Below are positions 4,031 to 63,077 of a DNA stretch of 64,000 nucleotides, piece after piece. Below the pieces are notes generated by a model. It saw only the letters and a list, made by a program, of their open reading frames with translations, was not told the origin of the DNA and did not search any database. The position numbers were made by a program, and so were the translations under genes. Source of the stretch: Acidovorax sp. GTDB taxonomy: Bacteria; Pseudomonadota; Gammaproteobacteria; Burkholderiales; Burkholderiaceae_C. The stretch is taken from positions 47,428-111,427 of the forward strand of contig NZ_JADHVT010000002.1 of NCBI RefSeq assembly GCF_016783915.1. Direction: 5' to 3'. Each line of letters begins with the position of its first letter. Within the stretch, counting starts at the first letter, position 1.

Positions 4031-4611
4031 AACTCTTGATGGTCGATAACTACGACAGCTTCACCTACAACATCGTCCAGTACTTTGGTGAACTGGGTGC
4101 CGAGGTCGAGGTGTTCCGCAACGACGAGATCACCGTGGCCGAGATCGAGGCGCGCCTCAACGCGGGCCAGCTCGACCGCCTGGTGATTTCGCCCGGCCCC
4201 TGCTCCCCGGCTGAGGCGGGCATCTCCGTGGCCGCGATCAAGCACTTTGCCGGCAAGCTGCCCATCCTGGGCGTGTGCCTGGGCCACCAGAGCATTGGCG
4301 CGGCCTTCGGCGGCAACATCATCCGCGCGCAGGAGCTGATGCACGGCAAGACCAGCGTCATCACCACCACGCAAAAGGGCGTGTTTGCCGGGTTGCCCGA
4401 GCAGTTCACCGTCAACCGCTACCACTCGCTGGCCATTGAGCGCGCCACCTGCCCTGATGTGCTGGAGGTGACGGCGTGGACGGAAGACGGCGAGATCATG
4501 GGCGTGCGCCACAAGACGCTGGCGATCGAAGGCGTGCAGTTCCATCCCGAAAGCATCCTCACCGAACACGGCCACGCCATGCTCCAAAACTTTCTGGAGC
4601 AGCGCGCATGA
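4027..4611 (+). CDS. trpG: Anthranilate synthase component II (glutamine amidotransferase)
   Basis: [14 protein letters not shown]-type N-terminus, [16 protein letters not shown]. Confidence 0.96.
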
Positions 4612-7300: not shown

Positions 7301-7310
7301 CTGTGATCAA

Positions 7311-7370
7311 TCACTATGTTTTTGATAGCTGCGGGAGCATATGTAACTAGCGCTACCAGCCCATTTCGCC
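7311..7370 (+). repeat. Dispersed ~60-bp repeat, copy A (abuts ung start codon)
   Basis: gatagctgcgggagcatatgtaactagcgctaccagcccattt. Confidence 0.75.
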
Positions 7371-8087
7371 ATGAATTCCTCTGAAATGCCCGCCACGCAA
7401 CTCCAGACGGCCCAACCCGCCGACTGGCCGGTGGCCCCTGGCTGGCAGCCCTTGGTGGACGCCTTTTTTGCAGGCGCGCGTGGGCAGGCGTTGCTCGCTC
7501 ACTTGCAGGCGCGGCTGCAGGCCGGGGCTGCGATCTTTCCGCCTCAGCCGTTGCGCGCGCTGGACCTGACGCCACCCGAAGACGTGCGCGTGGTCATCCT
7601 GGGGCAGGACCCGTACCACGGCCGGGGCCAGGCCGAGGGGCTGGCATTTTCGGTGGCGCCGGGCGTGCGGCTGCCGCCCTCGCTGCAGAACATCTTCAAG
7701 GAAATGCAGCGCGACCTGGGGGTGGCGTTTCCCCCGTTCCCGAACCCCGGCGGTAGCCTGGTCAAGTGGGCGAAGAATGGCGTGCTGCTGCTCAACACCT
7801 GCCTCACGGTGGAAGAGGGCCAGGCCGCCAGCCATGCAGGCAAGGGCTGGGAAGAGCTGACCGACACCGTCATCCGCCATGTGGCCGAAGGCCCGCGCCC
7901 GGTGGTGTTCATGCTCTGGGGCTCGCACGCCCAGTCCAAGCGCGCCTGGATTCCGGCAGACCGGGGGCACCTGGTGCTCACCTCCAACCACCCCTCGCCA
8001 CTGTCCGCGCTGCGTCCGCCCCTGCCCTTCATCGGCAACGGGCACTTTGGCAAGGCGCGAGATTTTCGCGCGCAGCACGGGTACTGA
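7371..8087 (+). CDS. ung: Uracil-DNA glycosylase
   Basis: [30 protein letters not shown]. Confidence 0.96.
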
Positions 8088-11945: not shown

Positions 11946-12009
11946 GAATTGCTATTGAATAGATAGCTGCTTGGGCATGTTGCACTAGCGCTACCGGCCA
12001 ATTTGGCAC
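11946..12009 (+). repeat. Dispersed ~60-bp repeat, copy B
   Basis: gaattgctattgaatagatagctgcttgggcatgttgcactagcgctaccggccaatttggc. Confidence 0.8.
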
Positions 12010-29180: not shown

Positions 29181-30074
29181 ATGTCGCCGCACCCTGTCAC
29201 TGCTCGGAGTCGTTCTTCGCTCTACCTCGACCTGATCCGCTGGGACCGCCCTGCAGGCTGGCTGGTGTGCCTGTGGCCCACGCTGTCTGCGCTGTGGGTC
29301 GCAGCCGATGGATTTCCAGGTTGGCACTTGCTGGCCGTATTCGTGCTGGGCACTTTCTTTATGCGCAGCGCGGGCTGCTGTGTGAACGATGTGGCCGACC
29401 GCGACTTTGACAAACACGTCAAGCGCACGGCGCAGCGCCCGGTCACGACCGGAGCCGTGTCGGTGAAGGAGGCGCTGGGCCTGGGCGCCGTGCTGGCGCT
29501 GGTGTCGTTTGGCCTGGTGCTCACCACCAACACTGCCGCCATCCTCTGGTCTGTGCCCGCCGTGCTGGTGGCCATTGCCTACCCTTTCACCAAACGCATC
29601 ATTTCCATGCCCCAGGCAGTGCTGGGCATTGCGTTCAACTTCGGCATCGTCATCGCCTTTGCCGCCGTGCAAGGCAGCGTGCCTGCGGTGGCGTGGTGGA
29701 TGTGGCTGGGCAACATGTTCTGGGTGCTGGCCTACGACACCGAATACGCCATGGTGGACCGCGACGACGACCTCAAGATCGGCATCAAGACCTCGGCCAT
29801 CACCCTCGGGCGGCTGGATGTGGCCGCCATCGCGGTGTTTTATCTGCTTTTCTTGAGTATTTGGGCGGTAGCGCTACAACCGTATGCCTTGGGTGCTATT
29901 TTTTATGTAGCGGTTACAGTGGCGCTGGCCCAGGCCGTGTGGCACTTCACCCTGATCCGCACACGCACCCGCGAGGGCTGCTTCAAGGCGTTCCGCATCA
30001 ACCACTGGCTGGGTGCCACGGTGTTTGCGGGCATTGCGGGTAGCTATCTGGTGCGGGCGGTACTCACAAATTAA
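29181..30074 (+). CDS. ubiA: 4-hydroxybenzoate polyprenyltransferase
   Basis: [54 protein letters not shown]. Confidence 0.95.
29855..29912 (-). repeat. Dispersed repeat, copy C, inside ubiA
   Basis: Reverse complement reads aaaaaatagcacccaaggcatacggttgtagcgctaccgcccaaa. Confidence 0.6.
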
Positions 30075-30115
30075 TAGCAGTCAGCGCTTGATCGACTAGC
30101 GCTACTGCCCCAAAA
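30068..30115 (+). repeat. Dispersed repeat, copy D, between convergent ubiA and proC
   Basis: aaattaatagcagtcagcgcttgatcgactagcgctactgccccaaaac. Confidence 0.75.
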
Positions 30116-30117
30116 CA

Positions 30118-55541: not shown

Positions 55542-55605
55542 GATTGCTATTGATTCGATAGCTTCTGGCGCATGATTTATCTGCGCTGGCGGCCTATTTG
55601 GCTTG
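55541..55605 (+). repeat. Dispersed ~60-bp repeat, copy E (degenerate)
   Basis: agattgctattgattcgatagcttctggcgcatgatttatctgcgctggcggcctatttggc. Confidence 0.75.
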
Positions 55606-55621
55606 ATTTTCAGGAGTTTCC

Positions 55622-57952
55622 ATGCGCAAAAGCCGCATGGCGCTGGCCGTGGCCAGTGCCTTTCCCCTCGCCCTTACCTTCACGGTCATCTGGGCCGTGC
55701 CCGCATTCGCCCAGAGCGCTGACAGCACCGGTGTTGGCTCCAACGCCCCCGTCAAGGAACTGGGCGTGGTTACCATCACCGGCGGCCAGCCCACCTCGCT
55801 GCCCACGCAGATCCCCACTACCATCGAGGGCGTGACGCGTGAGCAGATCGAGCATGCGATCAACGCCACCGACAGCGAAGACGCGCTCAAGTACCTGCCC
55901 AGCCTGCTGGTGCGCAAGCGCTACATCGGCGACTACAACCACGCCGTGCTGTCCACCCGCGCCTCGGGCACGGGCAACCCGGCGCGGTCCATGGTGTTTG
56001 CCGATGGCATTTTGCTGAGCAACTACCTGGGCAACGGCCCCACCAACGCGCCGCGCTGGATGCTGGTCACGCCGGAAGAAATTGAGCGCGTGGACGTGCT
56101 CTACGGCCCGTTTTCGGCCGCCTACGCAGGCAACTCGGTGGGTGCGGTGGTGGATTACGTCACGCGCATGCCGACAAAGTTCGAGGCGCACGGGCAGGTC
56201 AGCTATCAGCACCAGCCCTTTGACCTTTACAACACCAGCGGTACCTACGGCGGCAAGCAGGTGAGCGCCTCCGTGGGCAACAAGAATGGCGACTGGTCCT
56301 GGTTCCTCAACTTCAACAAGACGGACAGCGAAGGCCAGCCGCTCACCTTCCCCACGCGCCTGGTGTCTGCAGGCACCGTGGGCAATGCAGGCACGCCGGT
56401 GACGGGCGCGGTGCTGGGCAACAACCGCAGCAACCAGCCCTGGTACCTGCTGGGCACCGCCACGCAGTACCACACGCAGCAAGACCACATCAAGGCCAAG
56501 ATCGCCTACGACTTTTCGCCCACCGTGCGCGCCGCCTACACCTTCGGCTGGTGGCACAACGAATCCGAGGGGCGCCCCGCCAGCTACCTGCGCGATGCCA
56601 ATGGCAATGCGGTCTACAGCGGCACGGTCAACATCAATGGCCGCTCATTTGCGCTCGCGCCCACGGACTTCAATGTGTCCAACGAAGACCTCACACATTT
56701 CATGCACGGTCTGTCGGTCAAGAGCCGCACGCAGGGCGTGTTTGATTGGGAGGTGGCCGCCAGCCTGTACGACTACCAGACCGACACCCTGCGCGCCGCT
56801 ACCGTGGCGCTGCCTGCCGCGCTGAACGGTGGGGCAGGGCGCATCGTCAACAGCAAGGGCACGGGCTGGAACACGCTGGCCGCCAAGGGCACCTGGCGGC
56901 CCGATGGGCTGCAGGGCACGCACATCGTGGACTTTGGCCTGCAGCGCGACAGCTACAGGTTGCGCACCATAGAGAACGCCACCAGCAACTGGATCAGCGG
57001 TGATGCAGGCGCCCGCAACCAGGCCTTCAACGGCGACACGCAGCTCATTGGCCTGTGGGCGCAAGACACCTGGAAGATCGCGCCACGGTGGAAAGCCGTG
57101 CTGGGCGCCCGCGCCGAGCGCTGGAGCGCCAGCAACGGCCAGACGGGCAACGCCACCAACACGCTGAGCCACCCCGAGCGCAACGAAACCTATCTGTCGC
57201 CCAAGGCTGCCGTGGCCTACCAGGCCAATGAGCTGTGGGTGCTCAAGGCCTCCACCGGCCGCGCCGTGCGCATGCCCACCGTGGCCGAGCTGTACCAGGG
57301 CGGCATCAGCGGCAGCGGCACACTCATCAACAACGACCCCAACCTGAGGCCCGAAAAGAGCTGGACCACCGAGCTGACGGCGGAGCGTGACTTGGGCAAC
57401 GGCTTGCTGCGTCTGACGGCTTTCTTTGAGCGCACCAAGGACGCGCTTTACTCGCAAACCAATGTGCTCGTCACGCCCAATGTGACCAATGTGCAGAACG
57501 TGGACGCCATCGCTACCCGTGGCATTGAGCTGTCGTACCAGGCCGCCAATGTGTTCGTACGCGGACTGGAGCTGGGCAGCAGCCTGACCTGGACGGACTC
57601 CAAGATCACCAAAAACGACAAGTTCCCCGCCAGTGTTGGGAAGTGGCAGCCCCGCATCCCCGAGTGGCGTGCCACTGCCGTGGCCACTTATCGGCCCGAT
57701 GACAAGTGGTCGTACACCCTGGGCGCGCGTTACAGCGGCAAGCAGTACAGCACGCTCGACAACAGTGACCCCAACGGTTTTGCCTACCAGGGCGCGAGCC
57801 GCTACTTCACCACCGATGTGCGCGTGCGCTACCAGATCACCAAAGCGGTCAGCGCCGCCGTGGGCATCGACAACCTCAACAACTACCAGTTCTGGAACTT
57901 CCACCCCTACCCGCAGCGCAGCTACATGGCCGAGCTGAAGGTAAGCCTCTGA
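55622..57952 (+). CDS. TonB-dependent outer membrane receptor
   Basis: Plug domain and C-terminal barrel; ends SYMAELKVSL. Confidence 0.92.
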   Translation: MRKSRMALAVASAFPLALTFTVIWAVPAFAQSADSTGVGSNAPVKELGVVTITGGQPTSLPTQIPTTIEGVTREQIEHAINATDSEDALKYLPSLLVRKRYIGDYNHAVLSTRASGTGNPARSMVFADGILLSNYLGNGPTNAPRWMLVTPEEIERVDVLYGPFSAAYAGNSVGAVVDYVTRMPTKFEAHGQVSYQHQPFDLYNTSGTYGGKQVSASVGNKNGDWSWFLNFNKTDSEGQPLTFPTRLVSAGTVGNAGTPVTGAVLGNNRSNQPWYLLGTATQYHTQQDHIKAKIAYDFSPTVRAAYTFGWWHNESEGRPASYLRDANGNAVYSGTVNINGRSFALAPTDFNVSNEDLTHFMHGLSVKSRTQGVFDWEVAASLYDYQTDTLRAATVALPAALNGGAGRIVNSKGTGWNTLAAKGTWRPDGLQGTHIVDFGLQRDSYRLRTIENATSNWISGDAGARNQAFNGDTQLIGLWAQDTWKIAPRWKAVLGARAERWSASNGQTGNATNTLSHPERNETYLSPKAAVAYQANELWVLKASTGRAVRMPTVAELYQGGISGSGTLINNDPNLRPEKSWTTELTAERDLGNGLLRLTAFFERTKDALYSQTNVLVTPNVTNVQNVDAIATRGIELSYQAANVFVRGLELGSSLTWTDSKITKNDKFPASVGKWQPRIPEWRATAVATYRPDDKWSYTLGARYSGKQYSTLDNSDPNGFAYQGASRYFTTDVRVRYQITKAVSAAVGIDNLNNYQFWNFHPYPQRSYMAELKVSL

Positions 57953-57966
57953 AAGGAAAATATCCC

Positions 57967-58527
57967 ATGTCTCTGAATACTATGAAAAAGATAGCTGCTG
58001 CCGCATGTTTGACTAGCGCTACAGCCTTGTTTGGCATTGCATCTGCCCATGTGGTGCTTGAATACCAAGTGGCCCCGGCCGGCGCCAGCTACAAGGCCGC
58101 GTTCAAGGTCGGCCACGGCTGCGGCGCGTCGCCCACGCGGCAGGTCGTGGTGGACATCCCCGCAGGCATGCGCGGTGCGCGCCCCATGCCCAAGCCGGGC
58201 TGGGCATTGGATGTGCAGCGCGACAAGCTGGCCCAGCCCTACAGCAGCCACGGCCGCAGCATCACCGAAGACGTGGTGCGCATCACCTGGACAGCCAAGA
58301 CGCCGGAGGACATGCTGCAGAGCGCTCACTACGACGAGTTTGTGCTGGTCGCCCAGGCGCCGGAGCAGGCCGGCACTGTGTACTGGCCGGTGCGCCAGGT
58401 CTGCACCGAGGGCCGCAACGACTGGACCGAGGTGCCCAAGGCGGGCCAGAAGCTGTCAGACCTGAAGTCCCCTGCGGCAGCGCTGGAGATTCTGCCCACC
58501 GGCGGCGCCACTGCCCACAATCATTGA
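57967..58527 (+). CDS. YcnI/DUF1775 family copper-related protein
   Basis: AHVVLEYQVAPAGASYKAAFKVGHGCGASPT. Confidence 0.9.
   Translation: MSLNTMKKIAAAACLTSATALFGIASAHVVLEYQVAPAGASYKAAFKVGHGCGASPTRQVVVDIPAGMRGARPMPKPGWALDVQRDKLAQPYSSHGRSITEDVVRITWTAKTPEDMLQSAHYDEFVLVAQAPEQAGTVYWPVRQVCTEGRNDWTEVPKAGQKLSDLKSPAAALEILPTGGATAHNH
57975..58035 (+). repeat. Dispersed ~60-bp repeat, copy F, encoding the YcnI signal peptide
   Basis: gaatactatgaaaaagatagctgctgccgcatgtttgactagcgctacagccttgtttggc. Confidence 0.75.
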
Positions 58528-58583: not shown

Positions 58584-59069
58584 ATGAAAACACTTCTTCA
58601 CACTGCAGCCGTCGTTGCCGTACTGCTCAGCACCCCTGCATGGGCGCAGACTGCCGCCGTCAAGGTCGAAGGCGCCTGGGCACGCGCCAGCGTGCAGGGC
58701 CAGAAGGCCACGGGCGCATTCATGCGCCTCACCGCCAAGGACGGCGCCCGCCTGGTGCGCGCCGAGTCGCCCGCTGCGGGACTCACCGAAGTGCACGAGA
58801 TGAAGATGGAAGGCGACATCATGAAGATGCGCGCCGTGCCTGCGCTGGACCTGCCCGCAGGCAAGACGGTGGAACTCAAGCCCGGCGGCTACCACGTCAT
58901 GCTGCTGGACCTGAAGGCGCCCCTGGCCAAGGACAGCTCGGTACCCATCACCCTGGTGTTCCAGGACGCCAAGGGCGTGGAAAGCAAGCTCAACCTCACA
59001 GTGCCCGTGGGCACGGCAGCCCCCGGAGGCGCTACGGCGGGCAGCATGATGGATGGGCATAAACACTGA
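58584..59069 (+). CDS. Periplasmic copper chaperone PCu(A)C
   Basis: GAFMRLTAKDGARLVRAESPAAGLTEVHEMKMEGDIMKMRAV. Confidence 0.93.
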   Translation: MKTLLHTAAVVAVLLSTPAWAQTAAVKVEGAWARASVQGQKATGAFMRLTAKDGARLVRAESPAAGLTEVHEMKMEGDIMKMRAVPALDLPAGKTVELKPGGYHVMLLDLKAPLAKDSSVPITLVFQDAKGVESKLNLTVPVGTAAPGGATAGSMMDGHKH

Positions 59070-62837: not shown

Positions 62838-63011
62838 ACAAAGGGCGCCTTGCGCGCCCTTGGGAGTTGATCAACGGGACATTGTAAGAACCTGTGGCGA
62901 CAGCCCCCATTTTTGCCACCGGAAAGTGTGGTGCGGCCGCCGCGTTGCAGGCACTCCCGCTCGCTGCCCGGCGCGCAGAGTGCGCAGGTTGTGGAGGGGG
63001 TTGAGGTGATT

Positions 63012-63058
63012 TAGGGCTGTAGCGCTTGCTGCATAAGCGCTAGCAGCTATAAAAAACG
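63012..63058 (-). repeat. Dispersed repeat, copy G, between divergent genes
   Basis: Reverse complement gttttttatagctgctagcgcttatgcagcaagcgctacagccc. Confidence 0.8.
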
Positions 63059-63077
63059 GAGTATCGCAGTGGTGTGC

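Follow-up and report, generated by a model that had tools for sequence, protein, structure and literature searches.

A dispersed repeat within the YcnI signal peptide of Acidovorax changes in step with the other members of its family

The window, by which we mean the whole stretch of 64,000 nucleotides of Acidovorax DNA that was analysed, contains a ycnI-like gene that lies between a gene whose product we take, from general family knowledge, to be a TonB-dependent receptor and a gene that presumably, on the same kind of knowledge, encodes a PCuAC-type copper chaperone-like protein (Table 1). Membership of the DUF1775/YcnI family is indicated by a PF07987 match that begins at residue 28, a histidine placed directly after an Ala-Ser-Ala motif, and the mature N terminus reads HVVLEY in translation. 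The gene more likely starts at the ATG at 57967 (MSLNTMKK..., with AAAGGA upstream) than at an ATG internal to a repeat copy that occupies most of the signal peptide. This copy contributes the n- and h-regions of the signal peptide, and the Ala-Ser-Ala cleavage site and the mature histidine fall outside the conserved part of the repeat. In Bacillus subtilis YcnI, copper is bound by the N-terminal histidine (PMC8424229), and the precision of cleavage should therefore matter.

Table 1. Genes and repeat copies in the window, with the evidence for each.
Feature	Position	Strand	Evidence
ycnI-like gene, DUF1775 copper-binding protein, 186 aa	57967..58527	+	ORF; Pfam PF07987, E 2.1e-41, residues 28-175
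Signal peptide coding region of ycnI, MSLNTMKKIAAAACLTSATALFGIASA	57967..58047	+	Translation; A-S-A before conserved DUF1775 His
Repeat copy within ycnI signal peptide, derived (D) dialect	57976..58035	+	nhmmer 41.6 bits; D minus O log-odds +13.9
TonB-dependent receptor gene (presumed), upstream of ycnI	55622..57952	+	ORF and coding score; used in species tree
PCuAC-type copper chaperone-like gene (presumed), downstream of ycnI	58584..59069	+	ORF
Repeat copy E, intergenic, just upstream of TonB receptor gene	55542..55606	+	48.1 bits
Repeat copy B, intergenic	11948..12007	+	68.9 bits; six-species alignment
Repeat copy between TrpC-like gene and next gene	7310..7375	+	47.2 bits; ORF context
Repeat copy, intergenic	63001..63063	-	31.0 bits; context
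Repeat copy, intergenic or at gene ends	30062..30117	+	28.7 bits; context

The original prediction held that 61 bp of this region align almost without gaps with copies B and E and are read in frame as the secretion signal of the DUF1775 protein. Positions 57975-58035 indeed agree with copy B at 45 of 61 nucleotides and with copy E at 41 of 61, with no gaps, and the best ungapped matches to this segment on both strands of the window are all repeat-family members or weak relatives. A profile search, using a model of 31 other copies from the same genome from which the signal-peptide copy had been excluded, gave 41.6 bits (E = 2e-11), and the repeat membership of 57976-58035 is confirmed at the DNA level. 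Signal peptides of the KKIAA type are common in general, and an AT-rich one might happen to look like the repeat by chance or convergence. Recoded 1000 times according to host codon usage, this 27-residue peptide never scored as high as observed (z 5.9), and 1000 further versions with uniform codons likewise fell short; the repeat match is therefore not a by-product of the peptide, and the likeness sits at the DNA level. Chance resemblance, which is also at odds with a window whose best matches are all repeats, is excluded in practice by this codon control and by the dialect tracking described below, and we give it a negligible probability.

The family to which the segment belongs is numerous in the study genome, with at least 150 matches among those listed and at least 172 distinct copies read from the stretches around repeat matches. 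The copies, about 14 of which are clearly coding, are similarly numerous on both strands, inside and outside genes. The element is about 50-65 bp long and has three conserved blocks (GCTAT-N7-ATAGC, GCGC-...-GCGC and GGCC-...-TTT) spread over about 49 bp, whose dyads are spaced by about two helical turns. One forward frame, the one used by YcnI, is free of stops and specifies small and hydrophobic residues, roughly A-I-x-x-I-A-A-S-A-x-x-x-S-A-x-G. An Rfam scan of the window returned tRNA only and no match for the repeat. Part of the element has been seen before: the motif pair GCTTAT(N)5AAGCG, reported in 2017 from A. ebreus in 114 copies (94% intergenic) as an unnamed statistical motif without function (PMC5217627), matches the central dyad in both halves and in spacing, but that report gives neither signal peptides nor dialects nor function. 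Like REP/RAYT systems and BRE, the beta-proteobacterial repeat element, the family consists of small repeats dispersed in betaproteobacteria. Identity with BRE, which is about 90 bp long with 69% GC in Bordetella and has 1-4 copies in two Acidovorax (PMC3110155), was rejected on its description, that is, on GC content and copy number.

The segment also proved to be an old member of the family. In each of the 13 Acidovorax species the ycnI signal peptide has a repeat-like score (z 4.9 to 7.6). For the 19 family members from outside Acidovorax, a repeat-like signal peptide was found in 8 of the 9 genomes with at least 17 repeat matches and in 2 of the 10 with at most 5 (Mann-Whitney p 0.012), the counts, made with a model from Acidovorax copies among the matches listed, ranking genomes only roughly. 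In the ninth repeat-rich genome the element lies at the start of ycnI, partly outside the scored peptide. One of the repeat-poor exceptions resembles a relic, its genome having kept next to nothing of the family, and the other has a weak signal (p 0.065 with uniform codons). We did not find the same signal-peptide DNA in all orthologs, genomes free of the repeat included, and the predicted recruitment of a repeat as coding sequence stands. Because the copy occupies the same place in all 13 Acidovorax species compared and the signal-peptide DNA is repeat-like in other repeat-rich Comamonadaceae, the comparison supports an old recruitment, which would predate the diversification of Acidovorax.

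The view of the repeat as mobile fared less well. In the 11 other complete Acidovorax loci, copy E and the ycnI signal-peptide copy keep their places; copy B, sometimes decayed, occurs in all six species that retain its flanking genes; and the copies in dapE, in a polysaccharide deacetylase gene and in a chalcone-isomerase-like gene are orthologous across species. The sites compared, few in number, were occupied wherever the flanks are conserved. Since copies thus keep fixed orthologous places, recent mobility is not supported. Aligned copies, inspected by eye, displayed neither the terminal inverted repeats nor the target-site duplication of a MITE. The single match to a Y1_Tnp (RAYT-type) gene has no repeat copies in the 3.3 kb read around it, on which ground membership of a REP/RAYT system was rejected.

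The ycnI signal peptide is not the only coding sequence involved. In the study genome, in-frame copies lie inside PurL, MoeA, PepN, ArgF, DapE, an acyl-CoA carboxylase, an ABC ATPase, an FtsX-type permease and an SrkA-like kinase, as well as at the N terminus of CysN, and copies occur in the signal peptides of YcnI, the polysaccharide deacetylase, a SIMPL protein and a TctC receptor. Ten repeat-bearing proteins were named by Pfam (nine from the study genome and the chalcone-isomerase-like protein of A. facilis), and the rest were named from reading of the sequence. Signal peptides make up 4 of the 14 clear coding cases against a rough 2% of coding DNA expected (p ~1e-4), a figure that is indicative only, the 2% being our own estimate and the 14 cases hand-picked. 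In the region of the element, DapE has about 12 residues, MoeA about 35 and PurL 7 net that are extra relative to solved homologs.

In-frame copies that are extra in conserved proteins are a property of Rickettsia palindromic elements, which likewise have many intergenic copies and some in-frame ones within conserved protein genes. The family could accordingly be a selfish element of that kind, with ancient in-frame insertions, signal peptides included, that ordinary gene conversion has homogenised. The copies in PurL, MoeA, DapE, PepN, ArgF and at the CysN N terminus, with the extra residues in three of these proteins, speak for such an origin. We nevertheless consider it unlikely: recent movement is not in evidence at the compared sites, and conversion among dispersed 50-bp copies with 65-75% identity is hard to credit. 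Nor is the palindrome kept as a hairpin, since no RNA hairpin with covariation was found in the repeat copies and the derived dialect of the element breaks three outer pairs of the central dyad. The Rickettsia elements moreover differ in being confined to Rickettsia and, as far as known, in having an unrelated sequence, and the review PMC2229807 does not report coding copies of them that change dialect in concert.

Two dialects of the element can be told apart. The form GCGCTTG...AAGCGCT (GCGCTTGATGGATAAGCGCTAG) is essentially the one shown by the other genera that have the strict pattern, and we call it ancestral (O). The form GCGCAT...CACTAGCGCT (D) is dominant only in the study genome and in A. 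delafieldii, as called in Acidovorax genomes by means of a pattern in which the diagnostic positions are free, and is taken to be derived because the other genera have the O form. We placed the genomes on a DNA tree (six gene pieces, the TonB receptor gene being used) from which distant outgroups were left out; this replaced a protein tree with distant outgroups that lacked resolution. In the DNA tree the study genome and A. delafieldii are sisters, with A. benzenivorans next (100/100).

The coding copies follow this division. The ycnI signal peptide has a D minus O log-odds of +13.9 in the study genome and +16.6 in A. delafieldii, and all 11 other ycnI signal peptides range from -9 to -19. 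The same two species reach +22.3 and +23.7 at the dapE loop, +25.8 and +26.7 at the deacetylase signal peptide, and +26.1 and +27.6 at the chalcone-isomerase-like signal peptide, which makes them the top two at each of the four coding loci. Intergenic copies E and B changed along with these four in the delafieldii lineage. Coding copies change together with non-coding members of the family, and a shared cause likely lies behind the switch at the four coding loci and at copies E and B. Since the two species are sisters, we are looking at one dialect switch on one lineage, seen at several loci. The A. benzenivorans genome is mixed, and its coding loci are as a mixed genome would suggest, D-like at dapE and the deacetylase and O-like at ycnI and the chalcone-isomerase-like gene. 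A fresh D-type copy that independently replaced the ycnI signal peptide in the delafieldii lineage would yield the same sequence at that one locus. Such a re-insertion is very improbable, given that the change is the same at six orthologous places with conserved flanks, four of them coding and two intergenic, and that A. benzenivorans shows half-changed states. We are fairly confident that the segment belongs to the family, that it is old and fixed in position, and that the copies at four coding loci track the family dialect on one lineage. The recruitment part of the original prediction is upheld and its mobile-type part is not, and the concerted change of the coding copies was invisible to it.

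How might a signal peptide come to share the dialect of intergenic DNA? We propose that a Comamonadaceae repeat of about 50-65 bp came to occupy the 5' end of ycnI before Acidovorax diversified, where it would have been tolerated because a stop-free frame with small and hydrophobic residues suits the core of a signal peptide. Unlike ordinary coding sequence, the copy would then have been rewritten in concert with its family, and a lineage would come to have one dialect in its coding and non-coding copies alike. The cause would be a recognition process acting on DNA, most likely a preference for own-type DNA during uptake, with homologous recombination afterwards, in other words a molecular drive like that of uptake sequences, with the protein part as its passenger.

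The uptake-sequence-like driver, taken alone, is a tentative proposal that we think less likely than not. Natural transformation occurs in A. temperans and A. facilis, in the former only by DNA of its own species, and Verminephrobacter, a relative, has signs of selective DNA uptake via type IV pili (PMC4212676). Against the driver counts that A. delafieldii, a species with the D dialect, could not be transformed under the tested conditions (PMC4212676). An uptake-driven process fits the dialects, the fixed positions and the restriction of A. temperans to own-species DNA, and a coevolving DNA-binding protein would fit nearly as well. In that alternative the element serves as the site of a nucleoid factor or other protein with a specific DNA target, and when the specificity shifted in the delafieldii lineage, selection changed every site, those in coding sequence too. 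Fixed positions, a genome-wide change on one lineage and a structure of three conserved blocks, whose dyads lie roughly two helical turns from each other, would all suit a binding factor, but signal peptides and enzyme loops are odd spots for selected binding sites, and we find this explanation somewhat unlikely.

Uptake-like drive has a parallel in the DNA uptake sequences (DUS) of Neisseriaceae, which have genome-wide dialects, two of them in one genome in Simonsiella (Frye 2013, PMC3630211). Both systems have many copies within and outside genes, genome-wide dialects and mixed genomes (PMC3630211). The Acidovorax element has the copy number, the orientation and the lineage dialects expected of DUS/USS, and a short core of 9-12 bp was not found in it. 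DUS are 10-12 bp long, as against about 50 bp for the Acidovorax element, which is a candidate uptake sequence only, and a length of about 50 bp in three spaced blocks, compared with 9-12 bp in known uptake sequences, counts against a classical one. The element may possibly be a long, lineage-specific DNA uptake sequence, which would be the first in Comamonadaceae, whose dialects would help to explain the transformation of an Acidovorax species by its own DNA only and whose switching would have rewritten signal peptides and enzyme loops; we hold this view no more firmly than that of the driver itself. The transformation barrier between Acidovorax species could also come from sequence divergence alone.

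Repeat-encoded protein segments have been described in Rickettsia and Yersinia, and genome-wide dialects, as a separate matter, in the uptake sequences of Neisseria. The RU-2/YPO1552 fusion of Yersinia has a repeat-made signal peptide (Delihas 2007, PMC2759123), but it concerns one putative exported protein of Y. pestis/pseudotuberculosis, whereas in Acidovorax several conserved named families across the whole genus are involved. For the combination, dialect-following repeats in conserved signal peptides, we found no description in the literature searched, from which subscription papers largely fell outside. Conserved exported proteins and DapE change in step with non-coding repeats, so that a process at the level of DNA seems to decide which amino acids stand at these places. 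For the sequence specificity with which Acidovorax and Verminephrobacter are naturally transformed, the element offers a concrete candidate. It also carries a warning that divergence of signal peptides in these genera need be neither a clock nor a sign of selection on secretion.

Several smaller observations concern individual copies. The DapE loop is a reverse-oriented copy present in all Acidovorax compared, with the D dialect in the study genome and A. delafieldii and the ancestral one in several others, and the signal peptides of the polysaccharide deacetylase and of the chalcone-isomerase-like protein (PF16036) are copies that follow the dialect. Among species with few copies, A. kalamii, GW101 and HMWF029 have coding copies that seem to have decayed and do not match a dialect. 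TCGCGC-like cores are common to several copies in A. kalamii and GW101 (TCGCGCGCAGA in copies B and E), and a third dialect in these two is possible. The signal peptide of the TctC-type receptor apparently uses the complementary strand of the repeat, the element lying at about 1200-1270 locally, near the gene start. A weak repeat-like match (8.7 bits) lies just 3' of ycnI in two other loci, at local positions 4560-4608 and 2057-2105, and apparently belongs to the signal peptide encoded by the gene that follows.
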